A stretch of DNA of 64,000 nt from Curtobacterium caseinilyticum. GTDB lineage: Bacteria; Actinomycetota; Actinomycetes; Actinomycetales; Microbacteriaceae. The notes under the pieces are model-generated. The model did not search any database, was not told the DNA's origin, and saw only the letters and a program-made list of their open reading frames with translations. The stretch lies in assembly GCF_030363035.1 (NCBI RefSeq), contig NZ_JAUCMN010000007.1, positions 1-64,000 of the forward strand. Direction: 5' to 3'. Positions 342 through 57,945 of the stretch are shown piece by piece; the first letter of the stretch is position 1, and every line of letters begins with the position of its first letter. The position numbers and the translations under genes were made by a program.

Positions 342-348
342 CCGAACG

Positions 349-4893: not shown

Positions 4894-4894
4894 C

Positions 4895-9929: not shown

Positions 9930-10688
9930 GTGACCCGCCCAGAACCAGACTCCGGTGAACCTGCTTCAGACGCCCGGATCCAGATGATCCGCGCAGCCGC
10001 CCTGCGGCTGACGGACTCGGTCCTGCGTCGGCTGCTCGAGCAATTTGCTGACGGGACGGTGTCTGCGTCCGACGCCGTCGAGAGTGCCATGAACCACGTT
10101 GATCGCAATCGTCGGAGTGACACTCATGGCGGTGACGTCAACCGGGCGATGTCGCTTGCTGATGCGGCGCTTGGCGCGGAGGGCTTGCAGGTCAGCGGCA
10201 CTGCCGTTCGGGAATTGGGCCGACGAGTTGCCGAGGGGCGCATGACGGGCGACGAAGCTTCCGCCCTCATCCACGTACTCCTCGCATACGGCACCCCAAG
10301 GACGGAGGGGCCGGCTTCTGTCGCCACCCTCGACGATCGAGTCGGACCGTTCTTCGACAGCACCTCGCTACTCGACCTACTTCGACTGAGCGCCGACGCA
10401 CTCGCTGCGTCGGTCGAAAATCGTGACGTGCTAGCGGTCGTTACAGCTGATGGCTTCCTCCTCTACCCCTCGTTCCAGTTCAACGAGAACGGTGAGCCCC
10501 TACCCCGACTCACGGAGGTGCTCGCTGACCTTGACCCAGACCTGGTCGACCCGTGGGGAGACGCCGTTTGGCTCAACGCTCCAGGCGATGATCTGGACGG
10601 CATGAGTCCAGCAGCTGCCCTTCGGAACGGGCGAGCTGAGGACGTGATTCGTCTGGCCGGCCAGTCGGCGTTCCGCCGCGCCCGATGA
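9930..10688 (+). CDS. MbcA/ParS/Xre-type antitoxin-like protein
   Basis: About 252 residues from the GTG at 9930; an ATG at 9984 is an alternative. The C-terminal 100 residues match the toxin-binding domain of Xre/MbcA/ParS antitoxins (DUF2384): FLLYPSFQF...G.P.PRLTEVL, then DPWGDAVWL, then AAALRNGRAEDVIRLA. Such antitoxins normally sit next to a RES-domain NAD-degrading toxin, but no RES gene adjoins it here. The N-terminal part is helical and not a standard Xre domain. It could be an orphan antitoxin or a regulator that has reused the fold. Confidence 0.65.
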   Translation: MTRPEPDSGEPASDARIQMIRAAALRLTDSVLRRLLEQFADGTVSASDAVESAMNHVDRNRRSDTHGGDVNRAMSLADAALGAEGLQVSGTAVRELGRRVAEGRMTGDEASALIHVLLAYGTPRTEGPASVATLDDRVGPFFDSTSLLDLLRLSADALAASVENRDVLAVVTADGFLLYPSFQFNENGEPLPRLTEVLADLDPDLVDPWGDAVWLNAPGDDLDGMSPAAALRNGRAEDVIRLAGQSAFRRAR

Positions 10689-10878
10689 AGGCCGACGCGC
10701 AGCTCAGCTCCTCGGCCGTCTCGTTAAGCGGACCTTCATCGGAACCTATTCCGGACCACTCATCCGGACTGTGCGGCGGCGCAGTCCTTGAAAGACCCCG
10801 CCCTCACAGCTGAGCGTCCGGTTGACGACCGGTTACCGGTTCACTCGTGCCTTGCCGGTGAAGGCAGCTGAAGCCTCG

Positions 10879-11463
10879 CTACATCCGACGCGTCCCTGCG
10901 GCGAGTCGGAGTGCCTGGACGGAACGTCGGTGCTGTTCCGCGCGGTGGCGGCCGTTGGCGGGAGAGGGGTGTGGTGCCGCGATGACGGGGACGAGTCGGG
11001 CGTGCTCGTCCAGGGTGAGGTGTCGCATGACTCCCTCGAGAGCGATGCTCCCGTACGTGACGATCGCCTCGACGGAGGGAAGCGCCCTGAGGAGAACGCC
11101 GAGGGCATGTCGTCCCTCGTCGATGTCTGCGGGTCGTCCACGGCCGGGGAGTTCCCACGGGATGAGGTTCCAGCGGAGGTACTCGTTGCGTGCAAGTCCG
11201 GACTCGATGCGGGCTGCGCGGAACGCGGCCGCGGTCGGCCCCGGGTTGTCCTCGCTGCAGACCGCCGAGTGCGCTGCGGCAATGGTCTGCGGGCCGGGTG
11301 ACTGCATGAGGACCAGCACTCGGCTGGACGTGCCGCCGGATCGTGGGTCGAAGCTCGGGACGAACCGTCGCGAGCCGTCGGGTGCGGTGCGCCATGCCTC
11401 CGCGAGGACGTTCAGCGATCGAACGTCCGCGACCTCATCCGCGAGTTCGTCAGGGGTGCTCAC
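10879..11463 (-). CDS. Uracil-DNA glycosylase superfamily-like protein
   Basis: About 194 residues from a GTG that overlaps the stop of the transporter gene upstream (GTGA). Elements fitting this fold are VLVLMQSPGP, EYLRWNLIPWELPG, a helical region ending in VEAIVTYGSIALEG, and a late PHPSPANGR loop. The PHPSP/AHPS-type loop and the NLIPW region are typical of the superfamily, though the usual GEAPG motif is replaced by MQSPGP. It may repair uracil or act on another base. Coupling to a TDT transporter is unexplained. Confidence 0.55.
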   Translation of the reverse strand: MSTPDELADEVADVRSLNVLAEAWRTAPDGSRRFVPSFDPRSGGTSSRVLVLMQSPGPQTIAAAHSAVCSEDNPGPTAAAFRAARIESGLARNEYLRWNLIPWELPGRGRPADIDEGRHALGVLLRALPSVEAIVTYGSIALEGVMRHLTLDEHARLVPVIAAPHPSPANGRHRAEQHRRSVQALRLAAGTRRM

Positions 11464-12617
11464 GCCGGCTGTGGTGGTGCGAGGAGCGTGCCGCGGATGA
11501 CGGAGCCGTGGAAGGTGCGGACGGCAACGGTGATCCACGCGGCGACGAGGCCGGCGTAGTAGACGACTGCGAGGACGGCGACGACGGTGAGTCCGGAGTG
11601 CAGGGCCAGGCCGTTCAGCCCGGTGACGCAGGTACCGACGGGGAACGTGAACGACCACCACGTCAGGCTGAAGGGCAGGTGTTCTCGAGCGGTGCGGATG
11701 GTGATGGCGAGGGCGATGACGGTCCACAGCAGCGCGAAGCCGAGCATCGCGAACCCGTACACGAGCGCGACGACGAGGAGCGCGTGGGCGGTCGACGCAT
11801 CAACCACGGTCGGCGCGTTCGAGGCGAGGAGGTTCACTGCGGTGATCGACTGCCCGACCGGTCCGAGGACGATCCACAGGGTCGGGACCATGCCTGCGGC
11901 GCCGACCTTGTGCTGCGCGAGTCGGTTCCAGATCAGCGTGATCACGACCAGGGACGTGACGAGGCTGAGGCCGAAGAATCCGTAGCAGGACCACAGCAGC
12001 GTCTCCCGCACTTGCCCGGCGGGTGCGTACGGCAGCAGGAGCGCGCCGGTGGAGGCGGACACCATCGGCGGGACGATCGGCATCAACCAGCCGCCGAACG
12101 CGGAGTCGGGTCCGTTCTCGTGACGGGTGAACGCCAGGTACGGCACCAGGACCGCGGTGAGCAGGCCGCCGATGGTGCCGATGCTCCAGAGGACCCAGTC
12201 GATGTGGACGGCGGCGGGGAGGCCGATCCAGTCCTTGCCGAGGAGGATCGTTCCGGCTCCGACGGTCAGGAACGCCATCGGCGGTGCCCCATAGAAGTGC
12301 GAGATCACCGGATGGAGGTGGTGCTTGGCTGCGGTACTCCGGTACCGGACCCAGTGCAGCACCATCGCGACCGTGAGGGCGACGAGCAGCACCGCCGCGA
12401 TCGCCCAGACGAGTGTTGCGGCGGTGCGGAGCCCCGGGAACTGCAGCGGCAGCGACGCAGCCGCGACGGCGACGATCCCGGTGCCCATGATCGACGCGAA
12501 CCAGTTCGGGGTGAGGTTCGACACGATCAGGCCGGGCCGCTCCAGCTCTCGGAACAGCCGCCGGTCGCGCACACCGTGCTCGGACGTTGCGGGTGCGTGG
12601 GCGGGATGAGCGGACAT
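11460..12617 (-). CDS. TDT family transporter (TehA/SLAC1-like)
   Basis: A 385-residue membrane protein with about ten hydrophobic helices. The signature near the N-terminus, NLTPNWFASIMGTGIVA, is typical of the tellurite-resistance/dicarboxylate (TDT) family that includes TehA and SLAC1 anion channels. In actinobacteria these are anion or C4-dicarboxylate exporters. A LysR regulator is transcribed divergently 70 bases away and probably controls it. The substrate cannot be told from sequence. Given the cargo around it, export of a toxic anion is plausible. Confidence 0.85.
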   Translation of the reverse strand: MSAHPAHAPATSEHGVRDRRLFRELERPGLIVSNLTPNWFASIMGTGIVAVAAASLPLQFPGLRTAATLVWAIAAVLLVALTVAMVLHWVRYRSTAAKHHLHPVISHFYGAPPMAFLTVGAGTILLGKDWIGLPAAVHIDWVLWSIGTIGGLLTAVLVPYLAFTRHENGPDSAFGGWLMPIVPPMVSASTGALLLPYAPAGQVRETLLWSCYGFFGLSLVTSLVVITLIWNRLAQHKVGAAGMVPTLWIVLGPVGQSITAVNLLASNAPTVVDASTAHALLVVALVYGFAMLGFALLWTVIALAITIRTAREHLPFSLTWWSFTFPVGTCVTGLNGLALHSGLTVVAVLAVVYYAGLVAAWITVAVRTFHGSVIRGTLLAPPQPA

Positions 12618-44112: not shown

Positions 44113-46059
44113 TCACTGCGCGCTCGGAGGGCACTCATCGACGGCCCAGAGCACGCGCCGAGCACTGACTCCGAGCTCGCTGGCAAGAACTCGTTGCTGT
44201 CGTTCTCCGGATCGCAGTAGTTCGTGTAGGAGCGCGAGGTTGACGTCATTGAGTTCTCGCCCTGGGCTGCCGAGCGGCAGCTCGATCAAAGGGGGCGCCC
44301 AGGTCACGGGGCCACGTAGGTCTAAGGAGCGGAGAACTGCGCCCGCGTGCGCATCGAGCTCCCGCTGCAACTCGCCCGTCATGCTCAAACGGAAAATCGT
44401 GTAAGTCGCCCCGGATTCGGCAGTCGTGGGTGCACCTCGCCCGGGTTCTCGAACGCCTGTCACGCGGTTCGAGAGGTACCACCGAGCACATGCCAATCCG
44501 AGACGGCCACCAGCAGGCACCCCTGCGCGATCTGCAACGAGCTTCCATGCGGCTGGAGTCAACAACTGCCGAAGGGGGAACCGTGTGCGCGCGTAGTAAT
44601 CGATTGGGGACGGCGATGCTTCCATTGCGAGTCGTAGCTGCCCAATGCCAGCCAGGCGTTGTGTGAGAGCGTGACCTTCACCAAGGGCGGGAAGGATGCT
44701 TCTGTCCCTCACCTGCCCCAGGTGGCGTGGCCCTCGGGACAGGTCCGCTTGTTCCCAAGAGTCGGTGTGGAGCAGAACGAAACGAAGCGCACGAGCCAGA
44801 GCTCCCTCGCTGGTTCCCGAGTCCCCGTCGAACCGGGCGGTCCAAGACGGCCAAAAGTTGCGCGGCACGTTCTGCGCTAACCATTCCACTGGTGTCGGCT
44901 TTGCGAGTTCTGGGTACTTGTCTCGTACCGCCCTCGTCAACGTGCTGCCCCACACGATGCGCTGCGTAGCGGACAGGTCACGGTCGTGTGCCCGGAGAAT
45001 CGCACGTCGAAGCGTCGTAGATTGCTGCGCCCCCGGGTAGTGCGCTATGAGGTCTCGGGCAGATCCAGGACCTAGATGCACCGATGCGGGCGCGTACCCG
45101 ACTGGGCGCTCGAAAGTGGTGATCCGTATACGTTCTTCGCTGATCTCGTCCGGAGCGTGAAGTATCTCTACTGCTGCTGCCGTGAGAGCGCTCATCGCGA
45201 ACGCATCAAGTGGTGCCGTTGTGCCGGGGTGCTCTTCACGATCGATCATTCCCTCAAGTTCTGCCGGTTCCAGATTTGCGAGGCGCGCTATCCGGCCGGT
45301 GTTGCCCGTCGCGCGCAAAGCGGCACCGATGGAGCGGAGATTGTTGAGCAGCTCGAGGGCCCCGCCTGGTGCGCCGATGTGGTCAAGAATCAGTCGTTGT
45401 GCCTTCGCCGGTCGCCCCTCGGGGTCTACCGACTCGACAATGTCATCTGGATATGGGAATCCACAGAAACTGAATCGGCTGCTCGGATCAAGTCGGTTGC
45501 GGCAAGTGTCGGGATCGAAGCTCCTGGTTGTTTTGCTCCGGTCGTCCGCAGGAGTGCGGCCGCAGTCCGGGCATGTGTCGCGAAGGAGGCAGCTGTGTAT
45601 TGGGCAGATGAAGGACCAGTGCAGACGCCACGTCAGGTTGTACACGCCGGGCTGCTCTCTCAGACAGGCAGGGCAATAACGGGTGCCCGCCAGCCTTGCC
45701 AGGGGACTGCGACGGGCGATGCTGTGCGCCGCCCGCTCCGTGGTGTCGTCGATGATGAGCGCCTTGCCATTCAGACTACTCATCAGCGACCCCCGCAAAG
45801 CTGCGGTCGCCAGGCGCGTGGACGCAGCGATGCGTTCGATGACATCCTCTTGGGCGTGATTTCCGAGCGAAATCAGCTCGTTGTGCGGTAGGCCGCGCAG
45901 CCCGAAGAAGTCGAGAAGCTCGCCTCGTGACGACCGCATCTCGTACGCCCAGCGGCTGATCGCCGTCTGCAGCCATTCGCCCGGCCCGAGCCTCACCTGA
46001 ACTCCAAGGACCTGCGGCATCTCAGAAAGCGTGCGGGACCTGCCTTCATCAGTCGTCAT
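44113..46059 (-). CDS. tniQ: TniQ family target-site selection protein, element 2
   Basis: 648 residues from the ATG at 46059, overlapping the tniB stop by 11 bases. Zinc motifs CPAC (129-132), C152/H155, CPDC (163-166) match the TniQ pattern. The C-terminus ends in LASELGVSARRVLWAVDECP, a helix-turn-helix-like end resembling the end of the element 1 protein (ALAAAVHRTPQHVRWALR). Sequence identity to that protein is low outside the zinc region, so the target is probably different. Confidence 0.9.
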   Translation of the reverse strand: MTTDEGRSRTLSEMPQVLGVQVRLGPGEWLQTAISRWAYEMRSSRGELLDFFGLRGLPHNELISLGNHAQEDVIERIAASTRLATAALRGSLMSSLNGKALIIDDTTERAAHSIARRSPLARLAGTRYCPACLREQPGVYNLTWRLHWSFICPIHSCLLRDTCPDCGRTPADDRSKTTRSFDPDTCRNRLDPSSRFSFCGFPYPDDIVESVDPEGRPAKAQRLILDHIGAPGGALELLNNLRSIGAALRATGNTGRIARLANLEPAELEGMIDREEHPGTTAPLDAFAMSALTAAAVEILHAPDEISEERIRITTFERPVGYAPASVHLGPGSARDLIAHYPGAQQSTTLRRAILRAHDRDLSATQRIVWGSTLTRAVRDKYPELAKPTPVEWLAQNVPRNFWPSWTARFDGDSGTSEGALARALRFVLLHTDSWEQADLSRGPRHLGQVRDRSILPALGEGHALTQRLAGIGQLRLAMEASPSPIDYYARTRFPLRQLLTPAAWKLVADRAGVPAGGRLGLACARWYLSNRVTGVREPGRGAPTTAESGATYTIFRLSMTGELQRELDAHAGAVLRSLDLRGPVTWAPPLIELPLGSPGRELNDVNLALLHELLRSGERQQRVLASELGVSARRVLWAVDECPPSAQ

Positions 46060-47152
46060 CGAGCTCTGCCGTACGTGATAGACGGTTCTGCTCACGCGTC
46101 CATTCGATACGTGCTCGTTCCAGAAGCGCGCGGTCGACATGTTCCGACCCATCTGCGATCGCTCGGACGAAACTACGCTTCAGGACTCCAAGCAGAGTGT
46201 TGAAGCGCCCCTCGGACAGGGCGTACAGGTAGTCAGCAAGCCCCTCGGACAACCATCCCTGCTCCGGCAAGTCGCAAAGCCGGACGCGGCGCTCAATGGC
46301 CGCAAGGAATTGACGCCACTCTACTTGTTGACTTTCATCATCGTATCCAAGGGGGTTGACTCTAAGGACGATCCACCGGTCAGCGGAAGCATCCGTCCCG
46401 AACGTCGCACCGAACATCTTCGGCCGTTCGAGCATCCACCTAGCGTCGTTTCCGGCGAGAATCAGTCGACTGTGGCCTTCACTGAGTTCTCGAAGAAGCC
46501 CGTGGACATGTTGCCCAGTCTTCCGGTCGAAGTTCACGCGCTGCACCTCGTCAAAGACGATGAGCGACGTGCGGCATTCCTTCAACGCCAACGCAAGGCT
46601 CTCGTGTGGCCGTGGCCCGATTGGTCGGCCCAGCTTCCCGAGTAGTCCCGCTACGATCGTCGGGACAGTATTTGCGGAAGTGTGGCGAAATCGGATGACC
46701 GGTTGGTACGTCGGAAGATGTCGGTAGCTGGTGCTCGGTTGAGCGACTTTTTCGTCTTCGTCGAGCCATCGGGTCCGAGCGGCCAAGGCAAGCGAGCTTG
46801 CAATCTCCGCTCGAAGCAAAGTGGACTTGCCCACTCCGGGCGGTCCGTCCAGCACGCTGACAGGATGCCCTTCCGCGTAGTCACCTCGCGACCACTCGTC
46901 TTCGCGGCGGTCCACCTCGAACTGCTCGTAGATTTGCTCACGCGACGACAGTCGGATGATGGGGAAGTGCCGGTGCCATTTAGTGCGCCTCATGGCGTAG
47001 CGCTCCCGATCCAGATCCGAGAGGGCGCGCAGTGAACGCATGGTGAGCAGGCCGGGGTCTGGGATGAGTTCACCGCGGACGGCGGCAATGAAGTCGCGAT
47101 CGGTGTCGGTGAGCAAGTTGAGCCACGGCTCCGCGGGGCGGGCCTGGTTCAC
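46049..47152 (-). CDS. tniB: TniB AAA+ ATPase, element 2
   Basis: 367 residues. Walker A GPPGVGKS (103-110), Walker B SLIVFDEVQRVNF (about 196-208), then LILAGND (sensor region). GTG start overlaps the tniA stop (GTGA). Same role as the element 1 protein. Confidence 0.92.
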   Translation of the reverse strand: MNQARPAEPWLNLLTDTDRDFIAAVRGELIPDPGLLTMRSLRALSDLDRERYAMRRTKWHRHFPIIRLSSREQIYEQFEVDRREDEWSRGDYAEGHPVSVLDGPPGVGKSTLLRAEIASSLALAARTRWLDEDEKVAQPSTSYRHLPTYQPVIRFRHTSANTVPTIVAGLLGKLGRPIGPRPHESLALALKECRTSLIVFDEVQRVNFDRKTGQHVHGLLRELSEGHSRLILAGNDARWMLERPKMFGATFGTDASADRWIVLRVNPLGYDDESQQVEWRQFLAAIERRVRLCDLPEQGWLSEGLADYLYALSEGRFNTLLGVLKRSFVRAIADGSEHVDRALLERARIEWTREQNRLSRTAELDDD

Positions 47153-49281
47153 GGTGTCCAGATGGGCAGCGGCTCGATGGCCTTACGAGTGGTGGCAGGC
47201 GCGACGGCTTCCACGCGGACAGGAGGCGTCGCCGGGGCCTGCGGGCGTTTGCCCTTCGTTGCCCGGATCGCTTTCGGCGAGACAGGCGAGGGCACCTGGA
47301 ATCGCTCGCGGAATCGCCGCATGACGGGGTCGATTGCCTGCCGCATGACCTGCTCTGATGTGCTCAGCAGCGCTGGCGGTTCGAGGAGTTCATCGCGATC
47401 GAATCGGTTGATGATCTCGTTGAGGAGCGTGCCAACGGCTTCTGGGTCGAGGTGTTCGGCGACCAGGCGCTCTCGAACCTGTCCCGCGAAGTAGAGACCG
47501 AACCGGCGCGTCCAGGGCTGCCGATCCTTCCAGGGGATCTCGTGGCACCGTCCTGCGGAGTCGAAGACGTAGACCTGCCGCATATCTGTCGGGTCGTAGT
47601 AGATGCGGAGCTGACGAGCATCGTTGACGGCGAGTGGGTCGGAGGCGATCTCTGCCAACACGGGACTGCGGTAGTACAGCCGACGGCAGAACACTCGCCC
47701 AGCATCGACGGCGAGATCGGAAAACGGGAGCAGCCGGATGGGGTCGAGTGCGTGGGCCGGTAGCCGAATCGCCCCGTGGCGGCGCAAGGAGTACTCGAAC
47801 ATTTCCATCGGGCTCATGGCGGTGTACGGATCGTCCTCCGTGTGGAGCGTCTCCATGACACGGCGGTTGTAGACGTAGGCGAATCTCCGGACGGCGAGTT
47901 CGTAGTCGCCGGGAGTCAGCGTCGCGTGGCGCTCGGTGCCCTCGCCACGGTCGTCAGTGCTTCCGCCGAGGAAGCCGGGAAGTAGCTCTTCGAGCATCTG
48001 CTTGATCGTGAGGAATACCCGCTCGATCTGCGCTTTGTCGGTCGGCGTGTAGGCACGGGACTGCTCATAGGAGATTTGGAAGTAGGCACAGAGCGCCACC
48101 ATGGTTGAGGATACGTAGGCGCTGCCATTGTCTGTATGCACGGTTTCCGGCAGGAATCCTCGCGCATCCGGATCTTCGACTCGGGCGAAGAAGTCAAGCT
48201 CCGCCGGGCAACCGACATAGGGCGTCGGCGGATCGCCGCGCCACTCCTCTAGCGCTTCCTGCGCCTTGGGCACGATGACGTCGGCGAGACAGAGGGCTAT
48301 TGCTTGCGCTGGTGTCGTGTGGGTAAGCGCGATACCGACGATCGCTCGTGAGTAGAGGTCAAGAGCTACCGTCAGCTCCAGCCGAACCAAGCCGGATCCC
48401 TCCGGGTTCCGCACCCAAACGTTGACCTTCGTGGTGTCGAACAGCACAAGTTCCCCCGCGCGCGTAGCAACGCGAAGCCGTGGCGACATCGCAGGCCTGT
48501 TCGCTGCAGATCGTTGACTCTTCGCCGTTCCGCCGGCATGGTCTCGCGCTCGCAACCATGCCGAGATGTAGTCCGCAAGCGTGTCGTCCTCCGGTAGGCG
48601 AAGATCGGCCCGCTCCTTCTGCGCCCACGCCCTGAACAGACGAGCCCACGATTGGGCCGTGCGTTTGGTGCCCTTCAGTTGTGATGTCATGAACTCAGCA
48701 ACTGCCGCCCGAATTGGGTTGTCCATCGGGTCCCGTGCGCGCAGCCGGGACGCGTGCACGAGCCCCATCGGCCCCTTCTCGAGCCACTTGCGATAGGTGC
48801 GGCGGATGTAGGTCAGCTCCGACTCGAGCGTGACGGTCGTTCCCGTCCGGCGGCCTTTCACCCGTGGGTCCCGGTAGCGCTGCTCGGCAAGAGCTCGCAT
48901 TCGTTTCGGTAGCTTTGTGTATTTCGGGTCCTGCTCGGGGCGGGGTACAGCGCCAGCTGGAGCGTCAGTTGCTAGGCCGGTGAGGAGTCGGTGGATGATG
49001 TCGTATTTTTCGCGATACTCCTGCAGTGCCGCCGCATCGTCGCGGAGTATCTCAGCGGGATCTTGATCGCGCCACAGCTGTGTGTTGGAGCCGGGTTGTT
49101 GTAGGGCGACGAGGACGTCTTTGATCGGTGCGGTCCCGAGCAGTGCGCCGTTTACGGAGACGAGATCTACGTCGAAGACGCCGATTCGACCGATGTGGAC
49201 GTCGTGCCCGAACCACTGCAGCCGCGTACCAACGGCCATGGTTCGAACAGCCGGGCGCGGTTGACTCTCGTGCAGGCTCAT
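47149..49281 (-). CDS. tniA: TniA/TnsB DDE transposase, element 2
   Basis: 710 residues from the ATG at 49281, which overlaps the tnsA stop (ATGA). Catalytic triad D282 (LVLFDTTKVNV), D384 (VHTDNGSAYV) and E420 (DKAQIERVFLT). Well diverged from the element 1 transposase, in line with the different end repeats. Confidence 0.93.
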   Translation of the reverse strand: MSLHESQPRPAVRTMAVGTRLQWFGHDVHIGRIGVFDVDLVSVNGALLGTAPIKDVLVALQQPGSNTQLWRDQDPAEILRDDAAALQEYREKYDIIHRLLTGLATDAPAGAVPRPEQDPKYTKLPKRMRALAEQRYRDPRVKGRRTGTTVTLESELTYIRRTYRKWLEKGPMGLVHASRLRARDPMDNPIRAAVAEFMTSQLKGTKRTAQSWARLFRAWAQKERADLRLPEDDTLADYISAWLRARDHAGGTAKSQRSAANRPAMSPRLRVATRAGELVLFDTTKVNVWVRNPEGSGLVRLELTVALDLYSRAIVGIALTHTTPAQAIALCLADVIVPKAQEALEEWRGDPPTPYVGCPAELDFFARVEDPDARGFLPETVHTDNGSAYVSSTMVALCAYFQISYEQSRAYTPTDKAQIERVFLTIKQMLEELLPGFLGGSTDDRGEGTERHATLTPGDYELAVRRFAYVYNRRVMETLHTEDDPYTAMSPMEMFEYSLRRHGAIRLPAHALDPIRLLPFSDLAVDAGRVFCRRLYYRSPVLAEIASDPLAVNDARQLRIYYDPTDMRQVYVFDSAGRCHEIPWKDRQPWTRRFGLYFAGQVRERLVAEHLDPEAVGTLLNEIINRFDRDELLEPPALLSTSEQVMRQAIDPVMRRFRERFQVPSPVSPKAIRATKGKRPQAPATPPVRVEAVAPATTRKAIEPLPIWTP

Positions 49282-50240
49282 GCCCAGACCTCGCTTTCGG
49301 GCAGAAGGAAGTGGTGCATGTGTATGCGCAGCTGACGCTGCCAAATGAGTTCGCGCAGAAAGGTCTTCGCCGCGAGATCTGGCACGGAGTGTTCACGCGT
49401 GAGCGCTGTGGCCAGACTTTCGAAGGTTTGAGGCCCGTCGAGAACCCACTGGATCGTCACATCACGGAGGACATTGCGCCGTTCTCCGCTGATCGGCGTT
49501 TGCGCGCGCGAGAGGAGGCTGAGGTTGGCGACGACCGGCTCGGCCAGCCCGGTCCACACGAGGTAGTGCATACCTGCAGCAGCTAGGGCCTCAGCCACCA
49601 GCCAGTGCCGCTCCTGGGTTCGAACGACGAGCGCTTGCTCAGGTCGTTTGACGTCCACCACGAGAGGCGGTGCCCCGTAACGTAGGACACAGAAGTCTGG
49701 CGTATGCCATCGAATCTGCGATCCGACACGGAACATGATTGTCAGCGGCTGACTGATGATGTGCAAGACCGTTGGAGTGAAATCGGCCAGCAGCACGAAG
49801 GCACGCTCTAGCCGAGACTCGCACATGACCAGATCGCCAACGGTGCCTGCGTACTGCGCGATGGGGTGATGATGCTGATGCGGCCGCCTCGAGAAGTCGC
49901 GTCGAGGGTGCGCGAAGACGAGGTCGGCGAGCGTGACGGCTTCCGCTTGCCGGGTCACACTGGTCCGCCGCCCAAGCGCGATCACGTAATCGAGATGAGG
50001 TCCAGTCGGCTGCGGCGGCAGTGGAGTGCTCTGCTTCGGCGCGCCGATTGGACGGTTCAGCCGCGCTCGCACTCCGGGCGATCGACGGGTCTCGCTTCTA
50101 AATCGCTCGAGTAGGGCGCGCAGTTCGATGTCAGAACTCTGCGAGCGCTGCGGAAGCCACCGTTGCGCGTGCCAGTCCTCAACTTCACGACCCGGGGATA
50201 CCTCGAGCGGGATCGTCTGCAGTTGCTCGATAGCTTGCAT
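49278..50240 (-). CDS. tnsA: TnsA-like endonuclease, element 2
   Basis: 320 residues. Nuclease residues ESRLERAF (E141/E145), HTPDFCVL (D182) and VVDVK (195-198) match those of the element 1 protein. Supports cut-and-paste movement together with TniA. Confidence 0.83.
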   Translation of the reverse strand: MQAIEQLQTIPLEVSPGREVEDWHAQRWLPQRSQSSDIELRALLERFRSETRRSPGVRARLNRPIGAPKQSTPLPPQPTGPHLDYVIALGRRTSVTRQAEAVTLADLVFAHPRRDFSRRPHQHHHPIAQYAGTVGDLVMCESRLERAFVLLADFTPTVLHIISQPLTIMFRVGSQIRWHTPDFCVLRYGAPPLVVDVKRPEQALVVRTQERHWLVAEALAAAGMHYLVWTGLAEPVVANLSLLSRAQTPISGERRNVLRDVTIQWVLDGPQTFESLATALTREHSVPDLAAKTFLRELIWQRQLRIHMHHFLLPESEVWA

Positions 50241-50973: not shown

Positions 50974-51654
50974 ATGATCGATTTCCACAAGGTGCGTGGG
51001 GACGAACGCGAACGCCTCGGGCGCGCATTCAAACAGCTACGAGAAGACGCTGGATGGAGCGTGCGGGAGGTTGCGGCATGCCTACAGCGCGACCCGTCCG
51101 TGGTGACACGGATCGAAGCAGGCAAGCTCACGCTGACAGAAGAGCACATTGTCAAGCTGCGGCGAGAGCTCGGCGTATCGATCGATGACCTAATCGACAG
51201 GTCGTCGCCCCCCTCCCCCTTCCTCGACCGTGAGGAATGGTCAAACACTCAAGGGCATTGGCGGGCACTCACTCCCCCCGGCCGGCGTGACCGACTCTTC
51301 GCTCTAACGATGGACCGTCAGGCATCTCAGCCTCACACGTGTATCCACGCGGGCGAGGAGTTCGTCAGCGTGCTCTCCGGGGCAATAGTTGTGACGCTGG
51401 GCAGAACAGAGCACCGGATCGAGGCCCGTTCCGCCGTGCTCCATGTCGCTCCCTACGAAAGTCATGCCGTCCACCTTGCTCCTGACTGCGAACGAGCCGA
51501 GCTGCTGTGGACGCTCCCTTCCGATGGCCTGCGCCGCCACACGCTCATCGAGGGACCAGTGACGGCGTGGACATGCCTTACCGATCCTGAACACGACGAG
51601 ATCGAGAAGCAAACGGTCTCCGAGGCCGACGCGTCCCATACGCTTGAGCGGTGA
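50974..51654 (+). CDS. XRE-family regulator with cupin domain
   Basis: 226 residues. N-terminal XRE domain (about 15-70: LREDAGWSVREVAACLQRDP, SVVTRIEAGK), then a cupin-like domain (PHTCIHAGEEFVSVLSGAIVV, LHVAPYESHAVHLA). Typical of small-molecule-responsive repressors. The stop overlaps the next gene (GTGA). Confidence 0.82.
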   Translation: MIDFHKVRGDERERLGRAFKQLREDAGWSVREVAACLQRDPSVVTRIEAGKLTLTEEHIVKLRRELGVSIDDLIDRSSPPSPFLDREEWSNTQGHWRALTPPGRRDRLFALTMDRQASQPHTCIHAGEEFVSVLSGAIVVTLGRTEHRIEARSAVLHVAPYESHAVHLAPDCERAELLWTLPSDGLRRHTLIEGPVTAWTCLTDPEHDEIEKQTVSEADASHTLER

Positions 51655-51944
51655 CAGAGAGCCACCAGCGTCGCGCTCCTGTCGACCTTTCCCCGACTGG
51701 TTGGCCACATGAAGCCGCGTCCGATCCGATCGCAGAAGTGGATCGGCGCTTCATCTTGCGGGTCCGTGCAGCCATGGGACAAGAGACAGCTCGGTCTCTC
51801 GCCGAACGGGCCGGCATCAGCCATGGCACCCTCAACAACCTCCTAGCCGGGAAGGCGTGGCCGACCCTCTCAACCATTGCTCGCCTCGAGCGAGCTCTCG
51901 CAACCGACCTTTGGCCCGGGCGCGTACTTTCCGACCACGACTGA
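51651..51944 (+). CDS. Small XRE-type DNA-binding protein
   Basis: 97 residues from a GTG coupled to the gene above. The helix-turn-helix ARSLAERAGISHGTLNNLLAG is followed by WPTLSTIARLERAL, a standard XRE domain with little else. Probably works with the XRE-cupin protein. Confidence 0.78.
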   Translation: MTESHQRRAPVDLSPTGWPHEAASDPIAEVDRRFILRVRAAMGQETARSLAERAGISHGTLNNLLAGKAWPTLSTIARLERALATDLWPGRVLSDHD

Positions 51945-51981: not shown

Positions 51982-52347
51982 CTAACCGATCGTCATCCAT
52001 CTCGCGCTCGGAACTAAGGCGGCAATCGCCCACAGAGGACTCTCGTCCGCAGCCCCAGTTCGGTTCCCTGCCCACACCGCGCTACGCCGCGCGAGCAGGG
52101 CGCTTGCCAACGCCATCAACTCGCCATCGTCGATGTCGTCCTCCACGAGCGCCCGCCCCAACGCGAGGTCCGCAACCACCGTCACTGCTCGCCCTCCCCG
52201 GACGACGTGCACATCACAGCGTCGCCCGAGATCAACGAACTCGAGTCGCACCCCGCTCGGTACGACGAAACCGTCGAGCCAACCGGTGAAGCGCTGAAAG
52301 CCACGCCCGTGGGTCACGTGAAGCTCCCCTGGCCAATCGTCCGTCAT
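51982..52347 (-). CDS. Hypothetical protein
   Basis: 121 residues from the ATG at 52347; soluble. An N-terminal beta-rich half (LHVTHGRGFQRFTGWLDGF...VRLEFVDLGRRCDVHVV) and a helical C-terminal half. Not recognised. Divergent from the unknown operon at 52396 with an inverted repeat between them, so possibly its regulator or partner. Confidence 0.55.
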   Translation of the reverse strand: MTDDWPGELHVTHGRGFQRFTGWLDGFVVPSGVRLEFVDLGRRCDVHVVRGGRAVTVVADLALGRALVEDDIDDGELMALASALLARRSAVWAGNRTGAADESPLWAIAALVPSARWMTIG

Positions 52348-52364
52348 GGACAGTACACTATCCA

Positions 52365-52384
52365 CCTAGCCATACCTTGCTAGG
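52365..52384. promoter_or_regulatory. Inverted repeat in the divergent promoter region
   Basis: CCTAGC-CATACCTT-GCTAGG lies between the divergent genes at 52347 (minus) and 52396 (plus). It could be an operator for either. Confidence 0.45.
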
Positions 52385-52395
52385 AGGAGTGTCCT

Positions 52396-52482
52396 ATGAC
52401 CAGTGCACCACAGCATTCAGTGCCGAGCCGCGCTGCAACCGCCAGATCGGCGTCGCGGCTACCTGGGACAGCGCGCGCGTGA
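52396..52482 (+). CDS. 28-residue leader ORF of the unknown operon
   Basis: ATG at 52396 has a strong AGGAGG site. The frame encodes 28 residues and stops at a TGA overlapping the GTG of the next gene (GTGA). It may be a translational-coupling leader. The alternative is that the site serves only as the operon entry point. Confidence 0.45.
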   Translation: MTSAPQHSVPSRAATARSASRLPGTARA

Positions 52483-53081
52483 GCGACCACGACTCGCCCT
52501 TCGTCCCGAAGCACAGGCGTCCGGAGTCTCGGCTGCAGTCAGGGTCTGGTCAGAGATTGTCTCGAATCTCACTGTCCGACCTTCGGGGGGTCAACCAGCC
52601 CGACCTGGAAGCTCTCCTCGTCGAAGTGCGAGAAGACCAGGCCCTCATCTCCGGTCTCACGATGGGTATCGGCTCGCTCATAGTTCAGCGGTGGGATCCG
52701 GCTTATGCGGCGACCGGGTGGACGCTTCATGGCGCGGACCTCACCCTCGACATGGGTCACCCGTTTGGGTCGATGTTCTACCGCAACGAGAAGGACGGCC
52801 GGATGCTCCGCATCGGCGTCAAGTGGCACCCGCCCGTGCAGCAGCTCGAGTTCCCCGCCCTTCACCCGTCGAAGCCCGAACTGACCTCGAACTGCACGGA
52901 GGAGGAGGTCTCCGCGGTCGTGTTGGACGCGCGGAGTCGGATAGGGACTCTTGTCGCGGTCAACGCGCAGATCGGGTCGTTCGTCGCTACTGAAGAGTCG
53001 GAGAACGCGATCCTCGACGCCTCAGGATTGGGCTTGGAGCGTCTGTCGGAGGATGACCCACGGTTGGCTGGCGATGCCTGA
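52479..53081 (+). CDS. Unknown operon, gene 1
   Basis: 200 residues from a GTG. Soluble and acidic, with no recognised domain. A helical segment DLEALLVEVREDQALI is followed by beta-rich GWTLHGADLTLDMGHPFG and later helices. Its stop overlaps the next start by eight bases (ATGCCTGA). Confidence 0.6.
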   Translation: MSDHDSPFVPKHRRPESRLQSGSGQRLSRISLSDLRGVNQPDLEALLVEVREDQALISGLTMGIGSLIVQRWDPAYAATGWTLHGADLTLDMGHPFGSMFYRNEKDGRMLRIGVKWHPPVQQLEFPALHPSKPELTSNCTEEEVSAVVLDARSRIGTLVAVNAQIGSFVATEESENAILDASGLGLERLSEDDPRLAGDA

Positions 53082-53388
53082 GCGTCGGGCGCCGCGGTTC
53101 GAGCCGGTTCCGTTGCGGCTGCTGTCGTTGTCGGCGCAGTTCGACGCCGTGATCTGGCCGACGGTGGCGGGGATGACGTTCACGAACTCCACCGGGCCGA
53201 AGATTCTGCAACGAACCGTCAACGTCCGCACCACGAAAGACGGGCGGGTGTTCACGCTCCTCAACGGAGCACCGTTGACGGACCCTGCTGACCCGCTCCT
53301 GGAATCGGCGACGCAGGTGATGGACGTGCTGGTGAAGCTTCGCGCGGTTGGGCGTCGTGCGGATGCGGTGGGGTCGGCTGATGTCTGA
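53074..53388 (+). CDS. Unknown operon, gene 2 (small-protein family)
   Basis: 104 residues. Core LRLLSLSAQFDAVIW...TKDGRVFTLLNGAPLTDPADPLLESATQVMD matches, by eye, the pattern of genes 4 and 6 and the N-terminus of gene 5: L-x-L-x-S-L, a short beta run, D-P, then a terminal helix. Overlaps gene 3 by eight bases (ATGTCTGA). Confidence 0.6.
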   Translation: MPERRAPRFEPVPLRLLSLSAQFDAVIWPTVAGMTFTNSTGPKILQRTVNVRTTKDGRVFTLLNGAPLTDPADPLLESATQVMDVLVKLRAVGRRADAVGSADV

Positions 53389-54418
53389 TCGGCAGTGGGT
53401 GCAGGACATTCGGCGCGAGCAGTCGATCTTGTCGTTGCCGTTTGGGCTCGGGTACACGATCGACATCACCCAGACGCTCACCGCCCTCGCGGCTGCCGGG
53501 ATGCCGGCACGGGTGGAGGCGTTCGACCGGCTCCGGTTCGACGACGGCCGCACCGCGTTCCTCGCCACCCCGGACCCGACCGCCACCGTCACCGACGACG
53601 GCGACGGTGCCGAGAGCCGTGTGGATGATGTGATCCTCCTGCCGGGCGGGTCCGAGGGCGGGGTGCTGTCACTGGTCCGCCGCTACCCGGACCTCGTGGT
53701 CGTGAACGGGAAACGCGGGCGCGTGTGGGCGAACGGCCGGCAGGTGCATGGCACGTCGATGCAGCGAAAAGCGACCCCGGGGTGGCGGACCGTGTTCGCG
53801 ATCGCCCGAAGCATCGTCCTACACGGAGGCGGCACGCACGCGATCGCGGACCGCACCGGCATCCCCATGGGCGAAGTCCGCGCCGCCATGCCGGCCCTCG
53901 GTCCGCACGTGTTCCACACGCCCATCGGGTGGGAAGCCGCCGACCGGCCCGTCCTGGTCGACTGGGCCCTGGCGGCCTACCCAGGCTATGGCGGAGTCCG
54001 CACCTGCTGGCGACGGGACGACACAATCGATGCGCAGGCGGATCAGCTGATCGGGCTGGGTGGGGTGATGTCGGATCGGTGGGCGGCGCAGCAGTCCGGG
54101 GTGCTCGTTCCCCCGAACCGGTTGACTGCGCTCTTCGCCGACCACCCGGACATGCAGGCGCTCGGCTACGAGCCTGCGTCGGCGGGTGACGCGACGGTGT
54201 CGGTCGTCATCCCACAGGACACCACCGTCCTCAGCAGCGCTGAGGGGTGCTGCACGAACGACTTCATCACCGCGCACGTCCTCTACGAAGACAGCTGGGT
54301 TACCGCGAACACGGATGCGGTGAACGGATTGCGGCAGCTGCTGCACTTCCAGTCCGACCTCGCCCACGACCTCCGCTGGCACCCCAACAACGGCAGCGGT
54401 GAGGGCGGGGTGGGCTGA
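53381..54418 (+). CDS. Unknown operon, gene 3 (large-protein family)
   Basis: 345 residues, paralogous to gene 7. Both share an N-terminal (Y/P)GLGxTxDxTxTL..L..AG(M/L)(P/R)A.VE..D..R..DGR, a WxxGxQxxGT segment, a winged-helix-like stretch (AIADRTGIPMGEVRAAM) and CYPG/AYPGxGGVRTxW. The C-terminal part (VMSDRWAAQQSGVLVPPNR...GYEPA...VSVVIPQDTTVL) recalls AbiEi-like antitoxins. That similarity is by eye and weak. Confidence 0.6.
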   Translation: MSDRQWVQDIRREQSILSLPFGLGYTIDITQTLTALAAAGMPARVEAFDRLRFDDGRTAFLATPDPTATVTDDGDGAESRVDDVILLPGGSEGGVLSLVRRYPDLVVVNGKRGRVWANGRQVHGTSMQRKATPGWRTVFAIARSIVLHGGGTHAIADRTGIPMGEVRAAMPALGPHVFHTPIGWEAADRPVLVDWALAAYPGYGGVRTCWRRDDTIDAQADQLIGLGGVMSDRWAAQQSGVLVPPNRLTALFADHPDMQALGYEPASAGDATVSVVIPQDTTVLSSAEGCCTNDFITAHVLYEDSWVTANTDAVNGLRQLLHFQSDLAHDLRWHPNNGSGEGGVG

Positions 54419-54693
54419 TGCTGCAGCTGCTGTCGCTGACGCTGGCCTACGACGACACCCGGTTCTTCGGGTCGGTCATGTTCACCGACCCCGACCACCC
54501 GGACGACAAGCCGGCCGTGGTCCTCATCGACCACGCCGACGAACCGCCCTGGTTCCGCCTCACCAACGTCGACCCGGAGGGTCAGGATCCGACGGTGCCG
54601 GCGATGGTCGAAGCGGACCGCATCATGCGGTCCCTCCTCCGCTACACGCCCGACCGCATCGGCCGCACCCAAGCCGACTTCCCGCAGCCCTAA
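54418..54693 (+). CDS. Unknown operon, gene 4 (small-protein family)
   Basis: 91 residues; its ATG shares a base with the gene 3 stop (TGATG). LQLLSLTLAYDDTRFFGSVMF, TDPDHPDDKPAVVLIDH, then DPTVPAMVEADRIMRSLLR. Same family as genes 2 and 6. Confidence 0.6.
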   Translation: MLQLLSLTLAYDDTRFFGSVMFTDPDHPDDKPAVVLIDHADEPPWFRLTNVDPEGQDPTVPAMVEADRIMRSLLRYTPDRIGRTQADFPQP

Positions 54694-54732
54694 CCCGCTC
54701 TGCTCACGCCCAACTTTTGGAGGTAGTTGCTG

Positions 54733-55596
54733 ATGATGCGTCTGGTGTCCCTGCACTTGTCAAACGACCGGATCCTTTGGGGGCATGTGCTCCTTGAGGA
54801 CACGGAGAACCCGGACGCGCACCTGGCGCAGATCCTCGTCCGCCCCATCGACGTCGAGCCCGGCTATGAGCTCTACGACAGGACCAACACGGTGCTGTCG
54901 GACCTTTCGGTGCCGGCGGTGCGGGAAGCGAACCGCATCGTGCAGACCCTCCTCATCCCCGCCTCCGAGATCGCGCGACGGGAGAAAGCCGTTCGGGCGG
55001 TGATCCACTCCGGCTACTTGGAAGGGTTCCCGGACGACATGCCGTGGCAGTCGCAGCTGTGGATGTATGCCCGCGGAGAGGTGACCCGCGAACAGCTCAG
55101 CGCCTACGCCGACGAAGGCCGACAGATCCCCCGGCGTCCCGGACACAGCGCCGCCGGTCCGGCGGACGTTCCCGAGGACTGGTGGCAAACAACGCAAGCC
55201 CGCATCCGCCGGAACCTCCTCGACACCACCCTCACCGAACCAGAAGTCGCCGCCGCCCTGCAGATCAGCATCGAGGAAGTCGGTGAGCTGTTCGATTCCT
55301 GCCGACTGACGAGCTTCGACCTCGAGGGCGAAGAACGCATCCCCGACTGGCAACTCGTGAAGCCCGCCCTGCTCGAGTTCGGTGACCCGTCCTCGCTCCT
55401 GCCCGGCCTCGACCTCCTCTACGCGGCAGCACCGCAACCGCTCCTCGACGCAGCAGCGATGACCGAGTTCATGACCACACCCCTCGACTTCCTCACCGTC
55501 GACGACCGAGTCCTGACGCCGCTCGACTGGATACGGGAAGGCCGGCCCCTGACGACGATCATCGCCCTGTTCCGTGGACGACGGTGGCGACCATGA
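54733..55596 (+). CDS. Unknown operon, gene 5 (small domain + HTH)
   Basis: 287 residues from the ATG at 54733, GGAGG upstream. N-terminus is the small-protein domain (MRLVSLHLSNDRILWGHVLL ... VPAVREANRIVQTLL). Then a helical part, an excisionase/MerR-like helix-turn-helix (LTEPEVAAALQISIEEVGEL), and a C-terminal LTPLDWIREGRPLTTIIALF that resembles the toxin-binding end of MbcA/ParS-type proteins. Possibly the operon's DNA-binding adaptor. Confidence 0.6.
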   Translation: MMRLVSLHLSNDRILWGHVLLEDTENPDAHLAQILVRPIDVEPGYELYDRTNTVLSDLSVPAVREANRIVQTLLIPASEIARREKAVRAVIHSGYLEGFPDDMPWQSQLWMYARGEVTREQLSAYADEGRQIPRRPGHSAAGPADVPEDWWQTTQARIRRNLLDTTLTEPEVAAALQISIEEVGELFDSCRLTSFDLEGEERIPDWQLVKPALLEFGDPSSLLPGLDLLYAAAPQPLLDAAAMTEFMTTPLDFLTVDDRVLTPLDWIREGRPLTTIIALFRGRRWRP

Positions 55597-55838
55597 CCCG
55601 CCGGCCCGACCTGTTCCTCTTCAATGTCGCCTACGACGCCACCGGGGTGAACGGGCAGGTGTTCTTCCGCGACCCATCCAGCACCGTGCTGCGGCAGGTC
55701 ATCATCCGCAGCACCGCCACCGGCAACATCTGCGAACCTGCACACGGTGATACCCGCGACGGGTGGGAACCGTTTCTCGAAGAAACCCGCTGGCTTATCG
55801 CCCTCACCCGGCCCGACACCTCGGACGAGCGCAGCTGA
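55593..55838 (+). CDS. Unknown operon, gene 6 (small-protein family)
   Basis: 81 residues; ATGA overlap with gene 5 and TGATG with gene 7. PDLFLFNVAYDATGVNGQVF, FRDPSSTVLRQVIIRS, then a terminal helix with EETRWLIALTRP. Third stand-alone member of the small family. Confidence 0.6.
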   Translation: MTRRPDLFLFNVAYDATGVNGQVFFRDPSSTVLRQVIIRSTATGNICEPAHGDTRDGWEPFLEETRWLIALTRPDTSDERS

Positions 55839-56863
55839 TGGGTCCGCGGCTTGAATGGGTGGCCGCCGCGTACTCCGGCAGGCCGCAGATCACGATGCCG
55901 TATGGCCTCGGGGACACCACCGACCTCACTGACACCCTCGCTGTCCTCAGGCTCGCTGGACTTCGCGCGGTCGTGGAGTCGCACGACACGATTCGCCTCG
56001 CCGACGGCCGCCGCGCACGCTTCCCCTCGTTGACGCAGCGGCCTCGCGGCGAGGAAACGGACGTTGACCTGCTCCTGTTAGCACCGCGCACCGTGACGGT
56101 GACGCAGATCGCGCTCGCGGAACAGACGGCGACGGTGCTGCTGGTCGACGTCGACCGGCGCCGCGTCTGGATCGACGGCAAGCAGGCCCTCGGCACAAAG
56201 GAGCGGTGGAAGGATGCGGCACCGATCTACTTCACGTTCGCCGTAGCACGCATGCTCGCGGTCAACGGCTCCACCTTCGACGGGCTGGTGCGGGCTGGGC
56301 TCACCCCTGGCCAGGTCGATGACGCGCTCGCACGCCTCGGGAAACGCGTGCACCGCACCGACATCGGCTGGGAGTCGCGACAGGTGGGCGGGCTCGTCGA
56401 CTTCGCAATTGCCTGCTACCCCGGGCCCGGCGGGGTCAGGACCAGGTGGACGTCCGACCTGCCGCTCGTCGAGCAGGCCGAACGGCTCATTAGCGCCGGA
56501 TGCCGCATCTCCGGCCGCGCCATCTCCGAGCGGCCCGGCTACCCCGCCATTAGCAAACGCGAGATGCCGTACCGGCTCGTCGCGTTCACCGAGGAGGAAG
56601 TCGACATGGCTGCGCTCGGCTTCGAACCCGACACGATCGGCTACTCCGGCACCGAACTCATCCGCCCAGCAGACCCCACGATCTTCCTCACCGCAGCCGC
56701 CGCCGGATTCAAGGACAGCACCGACGACACCATCACCGCCAACACGCTCCTCCGCGCCGACTTCCGAAACGACGACGACGCAGCTTCGCTGCAAGAAGTA
56801 CGCGACCGGCTGCAGTTCCTCGCCGACACCGGCTACGACCTCCGCCACAACCTGCTCAACTGA
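55838..56863 (+). CDS. Unknown operon, gene 7 (large-protein family)
   Basis: 341 residues, paralogue of gene 3: MPYGLGDTTDLTDTLAVL, RRVWIDGKQALGTK, LTPGQVDDALARLGKRVHRT, IACYPGPGGVRTRW, RISGRAISERPGYPAI, GFEPDTIGYSGTEL and IRPADPTIFL line up in order with that protein. Last gene of the operon. Confidence 0.6.
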   Translation: MGPRLEWVAAAYSGRPQITMPYGLGDTTDLTDTLAVLRLAGLRAVVESHDTIRLADGRRARFPSLTQRPRGEETDVDLLLLAPRTVTVTQIALAEQTATVLLVDVDRRRVWIDGKQALGTKERWKDAAPIYFTFAVARMLAVNGSTFDGLVRAGLTPGQVDDALARLGKRVHRTDIGWESRQVGGLVDFAIACYPGPGGVRTRWTSDLPLVEQAERLISAGCRISGRAISERPGYPAISKREMPYRLVAFTEEEVDMAALGFEPDTIGYSGTELIRPADPTIFLTAAAAGFKDSTDDTITANTLLRADFRNDDDAASLQEVRDRLQFLADTGYDLRHNLLN

Positions 56864-56877
56864 GTAGGACCGGCAGG

Positions 56878-57156
56878 CTAGCTCGATGGTCCGGTTGAAG
56901 GGCGTCGGTGCTTCACGGAACTACGCCACACCCAAGCGGCGAGCTTGGTCTCACCTCGACCCGCTTCCACCCACACAGCGTCTCGGGTGAAGCGGTACGC
57001 CTCGGCGTCACTTCGACGTGTCAGCCGGTCCGGCAACTGAAACCACGCATGCACCGGCAACGGCTCCGGCAACTCACCCACCTCCGTCCCACGAGCATCC
57101 TCCTCAAGCGAGAACGGCGACCCGGGCACCCAACGATCCGAACGACGACGACCCAT
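56878..57156 (-). CDS. Hypothetical small protein
   Basis: 92 residues from the ATG at 57156. PLPVHAWFQLPDRLTRRSDAEAYRFTRDAVWVEAGRGE... AAWVWRSSVKHR reads like a conserved small actinobacterial protein, with Trp pairs and alternating polar residues. Function unknown. Convergent with the 52.4-56.9 kb operon. Confidence 0.55.
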   Translation of the reverse strand: MGRRRSDRWVPGSPFSLEEDARGTEVGELPEPLPVHAWFQLPDRLTRRSDAEAYRFTRDAVWVEAGRGETKLAAWVWRSSVKHRRPSTGPSS

Positions 57157-57270
57157 GACCGCGACAGTAGAAGCCGGCACCGACGTTCGCATACGGGGCC
57201 CTGGGCGAGAACATCAACGGACTAGGCATCTGAGACAGAACAAAGTGCAGTCAGAGCAGGTCACGCTGAC

Positions 57271-57300
57271 GCGCCCGTTGAAGGACCGGCTATCGGACGC
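57271..57300. repeat. Dyad repeat, copy 2
   Basis: Arms GCGCCCG and CGGACGC around a 16-base centre. The core GTTGAAGGACCGGCTATCGG (57277-57296) matches copy 3 at 17 of 20 bases. It lies 67 bases upstream of the TetR gene. Confidence 0.6.
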
Positions 57301-57366
57301 ACCGGGCCGGATCACGGCCAAAGCGCTCAGGTGGCAGTTTCTGCCAGCCGAGCGTAGGGTGCCCTT

Positions 57367-57945
57367 GTGAGCGATGAAGGTCTGACGGCATTGGAGGGTT
57401 CCCGACTCCATGCATCGGTCCGCTGCTGTGAGTTCTTCATCAGCCGCGGCACCACCGATCTGCCGATCGCGGAGATCGCGGAGGCTGCCGGGATATCGCA
57501 GCGCTCCTTCCACCGCTACTTTCCGGTCAAGGCGGAATCGGTGAGTCCGGTGTTTGACTGGACCACGCGCCGCTTCGACGAGGCGATCCTTGAGGCGGCG
57601 CCGGAAACCGATGTGTCGTCGGTGCTTCTCGCGGCGTTCCGCGCCAGCCTGCTCGGGGGCGTCGCCGAACGCACGTCCGCGCTGTTCCCGCTGGTGTTCG
57701 CCGACCGAGAGATGTGGTCGGTGTTCCTGCGGAAGGTGCACGACGGTGAGCGCTCCCTTGCGCCCGTCCTGGCGCCGCGGCTGGGGATTCCGGCGGACAC
57801 CGTCGCTGCTCGTGCTGCTGCGGCCGCCGTGGCGAGCGCGACCCGTATCGCGCTCGAGGCGATGGTCACCACGGGCGCCGGCCCCGAAGAGACCTACATG
57901 CAGACTATCGACGCGTTCGCGTCAGGAGCAGTCCGTCGACGATGA
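57367..57945 (+). CDS. TetR-family regulator
   Basis: 192 residues from a GTG. N-terminal helix-turn-helix DLPIAEIAEAAGISQRSFHRYFPVKAE is textbook TetR (split here for length); the ligand domain is of the MftR/AcrR C-terminal type. Followed by an SDR gene in the same direction, which it probably represses. Confidence 0.88.
   Translation: MSDEGLTALEGSRLHASVRCCEFFISRGTTDLPIAEIAEAAGISQRSFHRYFPVKAESVSPVFDWTTRRFDEAILEAAPETDVSSVLLAAFRASLLGGVAERTSALFPLVFADREMWSVFLRKVHDGERSLAPVLAPRLGIPADTVAARAAAAAVASATRIALEAMVTTGAGPEETYMQTIDAFASGAVRRR

Follow-up and report, generated by a model that had tools for sequence, protein, structure and literature searches.

What might a compact operon on mobile DNA do when all of its nameable parts are of antitoxin type? 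The question is raised by seven genes, here called g1 to g7, in bases 1-64000 (the window) of contig C7 (NZ_JAUCMN010000007.1), which belongs to the 3.45-Mb genome of Curtobacterium caseinilyticum. The original prediction, made from the sequence of the window alone, had seen in them a tightly coupled, repeated gene set and had suggested a toxin-antitoxin or defence role. Our comparisons indicate antitoxin-type homologies, no recognisable toxin, a conserved operon and, in 12 of 29 distinct copies, an element end near g7. We tentatively prefer, with doubt slightly outweighing confidence, to read these genes as a toxin-less operon, largely of antitoxin-type and DNA-binding-type proteins, which may form a terminal module of Tn7-like transposons and act as their regulator or stabiliser. 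The locus is of interest because two unrelated antitoxin types occur together in a conserved operon close to transposon ends, one of the two forming part of a chimera, and because a genome may hold up to three copies.

Conservation and layout of the operon

Scanning of the genome contigs with g5 gave 69 candidate stretches, 24 of which encode a g5 relative; these are the 24 loci compared throughout. All of them come from Curtobacterium or other Microbacteriaceae, some genomes giving two or three. Genes g1, g4, g5, g6 and g7 occur in every locus, g3 in 23 and g2 in 13, with the order kept and some genes broken. Median ratios of nonsynonymous to synonymous substitution rates (dN/dS) range from 0.15 for g7 to 0.36 for g6, with 0.22 for g1 (7-14 comparisons per gene). 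The operon is real and conserved, and its frames are under constraint. The gene-neighbourhood search that the original prediction had named as a check recovered the gene set in these 24 Curtobacterium and Microbacteriaceae loci.

In the genus, a g5 profile matched 27 of 60 genomes, or 25 after setting aside G163, where only the VbhA part (see below) was matched, and G221, which has a distant form. Two or three operon copies are present in seven of the 25 genomes, and the sole copy is broken in three (G746, G753 and G754). Across the family, g5 matched 21 of 299 genomes at E <= 1e-3, of which 15 lie outside the genus and match part of g5 only, mostly the C-terminal part. Distant operons with other gene orders were found in L099 and L100, of the same genus, and in L101 and L102; all four have distant versions of g1. 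Beside the distant operons of L101 (8007-8321), L102 (5361-5735) and L099 (7513-8055) lies a further small protein with no family name, which by eye shows a G-Y/S-rich beta-strand pattern and for which Pfam gives nothing worth naming.

Decay of single genes was observed in several places. The g5 gene is broken in L041 and L044, and g3 is broken in L032 and missing in L043, while the other genes there look intact; g3 is also split in G033. Such decay speaks weakly against an addiction pair, assembly errors being possible.

A viral or plasmid origin of the operon was rejected after searches of viral contigs, phages and plasmids. There was no g5 relative in the viral contigs and no match to g5 or g7 in phages, and the plasmids gave no match to the operon DNA or to g1, plasmid matches being limited to parts of g5 and to g3/g7. 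A literature search, not exhaustive, found no description of the operon, of the toxin-free combination, of the g5 chimera or of the end position.

The genes and the features around them are listed in Table 1. The seven genes and a leader open reading frame (ORF) had been described as joined by overlaps of 1-8 bases. This holds for five of the six junctions of g1 to g7, which overlap by 8, 8, 1, 4 and 1 bases, but not for g4 and g5, which lie 39 bases apart with a separate GGAGG in between. At E <= 1e-3 the leader ORF had a match in only one of the 24 loci (L022), the 28-residue query being a weak probe, and comparison of the loci does not support it as a gene.

Table 1. Features of the operon and its surroundings (window positions)
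Feature	Position	Strand	Description
leader ORF	52396-52482	+	28 aa, open frame with upstream GGAGG
g1	52479-53081	+	200 aa, GTG start, no family name; first ~40 residues poorly conserved
g2	53074-53388	+	104 aa small protein, optional
g3	53381-54418	+	345 aa, AbiEi-like, paralogue of g7
g4	54418-54693	+	91 aa small protein
g5	54733-55596	+	287 aa, three-part chimera
g6	55593-55838	+	81 aa small protein
g7	55838-56863	+	341 aa, AbiEi-like
rev104 ORF	56878-57156 (longest form 56878-57192, 104 aa)	-	convergent with g7; at type A ends
right end, type A	57190-57298	+	end model hA, E 1.4e-17; this sequence is part of the model
inverted end sequence, possible left end	79-206	-	end model hA, E 2.4e-8; starts TGTCCGATAGCCGGTC
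tniQ-tnsC-tnsB-tnsA	44113-46152, 46049-47152, 47149-49344, 49278-50240	-	2 kb upstream of the operon
HTH97	51651-51944	+	97 aa helix-turn-helix (HTH) regulator upstream of the operon; HTH_3, E 5e-8
rev127 ORF	51982-52353	-	divergent from the operon

Relatives of the large proteins

The two large proteins, g3 and g7, are paralogous as had been proposed (hhalign E 5e-59). Relatives with about 30% identity are encoded on Rhodococcus, Frondihabitans and Curtobacterium plasmids, and relatives at E <= 1e-6 occur in at least 8 of 395 other genomes of the phylum (at least 9 of 396 with the own genome), five candidates being scored per genome. A profile of twelve distant relatives (the A4 family) matched g7 over 303 columns (hhalign, 99.84%, E 3.3e-29) as well as g3 (99.06%, E 1.6e-17).

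These distant relatives are the first genes of two-gene sets. The nucleotidyltransferase (NTase) motif GG(h/q)MV...R.T.DAD.G was found behind 12 of 13 of them, approximately 30-130 codons past the first gene. The pattern was written after reading six neighbours; of the seven unseen ones, six match and L117 does not. Two further matches appeared in the remaining data, one behind a distant g7 relative (L020) and one spurious. AbiEii in Pfam gave a weak match for three of the eight second genes scanned (E 1.8e-4, 0.0099 and 0.037), and three relatives of g3/g7 gave weak AbiEi_2 or AbiEi_4 matches (best E 0.019).

The full-length profile match and the NTase motif behind the relatives indicate that g3, g7 and the AbiEi-type antitoxins have a common ancestor, the toxin partner being missing here. 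The NTase motif is absent from the three forward frames of 52301-57400, and none of g1 to g7 has a Pfam match to AbiEii. In common with type IV AbiE systems, g3 and g7 have an HTH region and are homologous over their full length to the gene that comes first in AbiE-like pairs of plasmids and actinobacterial genomes. The operon differs from these systems in having two paralogues and small proteins in one unit without the AbiEii nucleotidyltransferase. Moreover, g3 and g7 themselves have no Pfam AbiEi match, and their HTH lies mid-protein, whereas PMC3985639 places that of AbiEi at the N-terminus. A winged-helix-like stretch had also been proposed for the large proteins; a corresponding order of elements is seen at residues 130-180 of the g7 AlphaFold model, with low confidence in a model of moderate quality.

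The g5 chimera and the small domain

Protein g5 is a chimera of three parts: a small domain (residues 1-80), a VbhA-type segment (83-123) and an HTH-type, Rv2175c-like end (about 150-285), the last weakly supported. The Pfam VbhA model (PF18495) matches residues 83-123 with E 6.4e-5 and 23.3 bits, slightly under the cut-off of 25.9. The segment contains SGYLEG, which fits the inhibition motif of Fic antitoxins, [S/T]xxxE[G/N], as given in PMC5033356. The motif is invariant in all 20 aligned rows, the alignment covering 20 of 25 copies and omitting L028 and four whose g5 is broken; the distant g5 of L099 does not preserve it. Two 63-residue antitoxins, in L077 and L079, are 50% and 44% identical to the segment, respectively, over 52 residues. 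Both adjoin Fic genes: that of L077 overlaps one with HPFMEGNGR, and that of L079 stands beside one. The segment is also 55% identical, over 44 residues, to a small VbhA protein on plasmid D40. In the PDB, the g5 profile matched within the segment 5nh2_B (named uncharacterised, E 0.046) and 5eu0_B (named antitoxin 1, E 1.4).

Parts of g5 are encoded by individual genes in L101 and L102, suggesting that g5 arose by fusion. Its AlphaFold model is usable only for approximately residues 1-75, comprising four strands and a helix. In class I FicTA systems (VbhA/FicA) the antitoxin accompanies a Fic toxin, whereas here the segment is embedded in a 287-residue protein between the small domain and the HTH-type end, and no Fic match was found in g1 to g7. 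The own genome gave one Fic match, on contig C8.

The original prediction had assigned to g5 an HTH and an MbcA/ParS-like end and had missed the VbhA segment. The HTH is retained with weak support, since some relatives of the g5 end have weak HTH_17 and Rv2175c winged-HTH matches. The MbcA/ParS end was rejected, as Pfam gave no such match for g5, for its C-terminal part or for seven relatives of that part.

One pattern had been said to unite the small proteins with the N-terminus of g5. This is borne out for g4 and g5 (hhalign E 2.7e-9) and probably for g6 (g4 vs g6, E 4.1e-5), whereas the profile match of g2 to g4 is weak (E 0.0011). We therefore assign a common small domain to g4 and the g5 N-terminus, probably to g6 and perhaps to g2. 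No relation of g1 to the small proteins was detected (hhalign E >= 0.6 to each). A sub-threshold Pfam match of g1 to Polysacc_deac_2 (E 0.008, 15.7 of 27.5 bits) is not trusted. The HPF string in g1 was considered as a Fic motif and rejected: the remaining motif is absent, and HPF is not kept in distant g1 versions.

Among g1 to g7, neither PADLOC nor NCBIfam gave any match, PHROGs matched g1 alone and at chance level (E 0.27), and no toxin was recognised by Pfam, NCBIfam, PADLOC or PHROGs. Known relatives exist for g3, g7 and the VbhA segment of g5; for g1 and the small domain none could be named. The claim that no gene belongs to a nameable family thus survives for g1 and the small domain and lapses for the AbiEi-like proteins and the VbhA segment. 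The repeated small-large unit is likewise present in the window (g2-g3 and g6-g7) but is not a general feature, as 11 of the 24 loci have no g2, and in L043 g3 is missing as well as g2.

The Tn7-like element and its ends

In the window, the operon lies between a set of tns genes (44113-50240) and an element end at 57298. The set is supported by Pfam matches to TniQ (E 2.3e-15) and to rve (E 3e-10) together with Mu-transpos_C (E 3.7e-5); AAA_22 (E 8.4e-6, just under) and the TnsA N-terminal domain (E 0.0029) remained below the cut-off. The earlier assignment to mobile DNA can thus be sharpened to the ends of Tn7-like transposons.

Behind the g7 stop, operon copies from different locations carry either of two shared sequences. 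The type B end, of about 137 bp, follows g7 directly; the type A end is preceded by rev104. Both terminate in a motif similar to GACCGGCTATCGGAC, beyond which homology is lost. GACCGGCTATCGGAC itself occurs as a perfect 15-mer at 57284-57298 and, inverted, at 80-94, and nine sites in the genome match it with at most one mismatch (none for the reversed control). Contigs C7 and C11 start with 77 identical bases, followed by a one-base difference before TGTCCGATAGCCGG; this common start ahead of an element end probably marks a repeated junction at which the assembly broke.

Used by itself, the end motif is not specific enough as a marker: in 36 genus genomes it gave 202 matches and its reversed control 135, and in 23 others the counts were 46 and 132. 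With nhmmer end models, a match was found within 700 bp of g7 in the 12 copies mentioned above, all in one orientation, and six of the 12 had not been used in building the models. In a control with 1000 random stretches of 700 bp from these loci, 20 matched an end model, some of them probably real ends. The 29 copies include one truncated copy and leave aside L037, L040 and L064, whose g7 is frameshifted; these three also match the end model, L040 being part of it. The rev104 query, in its form with the shorter start, had a match no more than 700 bp from g7 in 13 of the 29 copies, two of these matches being weak (54% and 57%). Judged by such matches, the operon often sits at the end of Tn7-like elements in Curtobacterium.

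The element resembles Tn7-like transposons in its tnsABC-tniQ set, in its inverted ends with a subterminal repeat and in the position of ends beside the 3' side of a uracil-DNA glycosylase (UDG)-like gene in several strains. It differs in holding the operon between tnsA and its right end; no target duplication was seen by eye when the end at 79 was paired with that at 57298 or at 10843.

Lone g7-like genes, 39-42% identical to g7, occur shortly before an element end in L056 (9663-10934) and L173, the rest of the operon being absent. Remnants of the 3' part of g7 were seen in L053, L059, L060, L066, L069-L071 and L109, several of them followed by end sequences or rev104. They sit behind full copies or alone and seem to be traces of repeated insertion and decay. 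An interpretation of these remnants as integrase attachment sites was dropped in favour of transposon ends because about 137 bp at the termini proved to be shared. When 20 regions around further end-motif sites were compared with the end model, six matched at E < 1e-5. Among the six, one carries rev104 and another, chosen because the gene was already known, a lone g7-like gene.

Possible functions

We consider the operon to be a toxin-antitoxin-derived module of a mobile element. It is not counted as AbiE or FicTA proper, because the toxin, a defining part of either system, was tested for and not found. In the reading we tentatively prefer, that of a toxin-less terminal module, the products would assemble into a single complex, with g3, g5 and g7 held together by the small domains. 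This complex may bind the operon promoter, the element DNA or both, may repress its own operon and, by analogy, could keep the element quiet and stably inherited. In addition, the VbhA segment might neutralise a Fic toxin from elsewhere in the cell. The repressor role is proposed on two precedents: AbiEi represses its own operon, according to PMC3985639, and Tn7-like CRISPR-associated transposon (CAST) elements encode their own repressors, CvkR and an Arc-like protein, as described in PMC9938897. Like these repressors, the proteins studied here are of DNA-binding type and encoded inside Tn7-like elements; the CAST repressors described there are of the MerR and ribbon-helix-helix types, whereas the present operon is of AbiEi-like and VbhA-HTH composition, lies near the element end and is only putatively repressive. 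A bolder version, which we regard as rather unlikely, is that domesticated AbiE and Fic antitoxins, linked by a new small domain, make up a toxin-free complex that is bound to the element end and regulates when or where the Tn7-like element moves. If the operon regulates its element, it would exemplify the recruitment of toxin-antitoxin parts by a mobile element for its own control.

Several observations weigh against such a terminal regulator. No end was found within 700 bp of g7 in 17 of the 29 copies, and tns genes lie upstream in only four of the 24 loci (L022, L037, L041 and L045), where the search upstream of g1 covered 0.3-6.9 kb per locus. The operon was absent from the 20 regions around other end-motif sites and is thus not a constant part of these elements, and its promoter region holds none of the ten best end-motif scores. 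With the g5 profile, the top PDB hit (E 1.4e-4, at residues 158-190) was a 'CAP repeat' chain that bears no relation to antitoxins. The models of g5 and g7 are poor overall (mean predicted local distance difference test, pLDDT, 49.9 and 63.7, respectively), and Foldseek searches with both gave nothing at E <= 0.001.

The operon could instead be a true toxin-antitoxin or abortive-infection cargo, with g1 or a small protein as the toxin and g3 and g7 as antitoxins, in which case it would hold an undescribed toxin. We judge this unlikely, though by no means negligible. The relatives of g3/g7 hold the antitoxin position in their gene pairs, the genes overlap tightly, some copies lie among varied, partly defence-like genes (read by eye), and toxin-antitoxin and defence genes are over-represented in the cargo of Tn7-like elements, as reported in PMC8649781. 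On the other hand, every nameable part is of antitoxin type, g2 is dispensable (13 of 24 loci), and g3 or g5 can be singly broken or missing while the rest looks intact, assembly errors being possible. Fusion of the small domain to an antitoxin segment in g5 would be untypical of a toxin, and PADLOC recognises nothing in the operon. The role first suggested for the locus stays conjectural in view of the antitoxin type of the named parts, single-gene decay in several loci and the PADLOC result.

Two unrelated antitoxin types without their own toxins might also serve as an antitoxin bank that shields the element or host from Fic and AbiEii-like toxins of other mobile elements, in the manner of anti-addiction or counter-defence. 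Preservation of the VbhA motif in the 20 aligned close copies and the presence of Fic genes in 58 of the 60 genus genomes are in line with such a role. However, the operon does not track AbiEii, which occurs in 5 of 25 genomes with the operon and in 8 of the remaining 35, G163 and G221 being placed in the second group; G018 has two operon copies and no Fic match at E <= 1e-5, and the distant g5 of L099 lacks the motif. Neither AbiEii nor Fic showed a useful association with the operon in the 60 genomes, and we consider this role improbable. We attach a similarly low probability to plain cargo, i.e. regulators of adjoining cargo genes whose end position is a by-product of recombination between elements. 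Here the comparison of the window with L022 is relevant: identity is 95.6-99.6% per 500 bases from 47.2 to about 54.2 kb, falls to 84-91% from there to near the g7 end, and homology is lost after g7. Based on the drop at about 54.2 kb, a recombination joint appears to lie inside the operon, the right halves having been exchanged between elements. Upstream genes also differ between operon copies, and element ends exist without the operon. Nevertheless, the end matches in the 12 copies all have one orientation, and gene order and selection are kept amid unrelated neighbours, as would hardly be expected of plain cargo.

Neighbouring genes

Two HTH97 homologues lie upstream of the distant operon in L102, and a rev127 homologue (E 7e-7) occupies the same place and orientation there.

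The window contains a second Tn7-like set, tniQ, tnsC, tnsB and tnsA at 2689-9125 on the minus strand, in a locus spanning 79-10843, which ends at about 10843 beside the UDG-like gene (10844-11727; sub-threshold Pfam match, E 1.2e-4). The 3' side of this gene is a common insertion site, with element ends immediately next to it in the window, L023, L056, L169 (G009) and L173 (G020). The last ORF before the second end (9861-10688) has weak matches to Rv2175c_C (E 0.0017) and VbhA (E 0.0051) and no BLASTP similarity to g5. Cargo ORFs include genes that we take to be enolase, arsenic, fluoride, DUF5131/TcmP-like and methylase-like genes.

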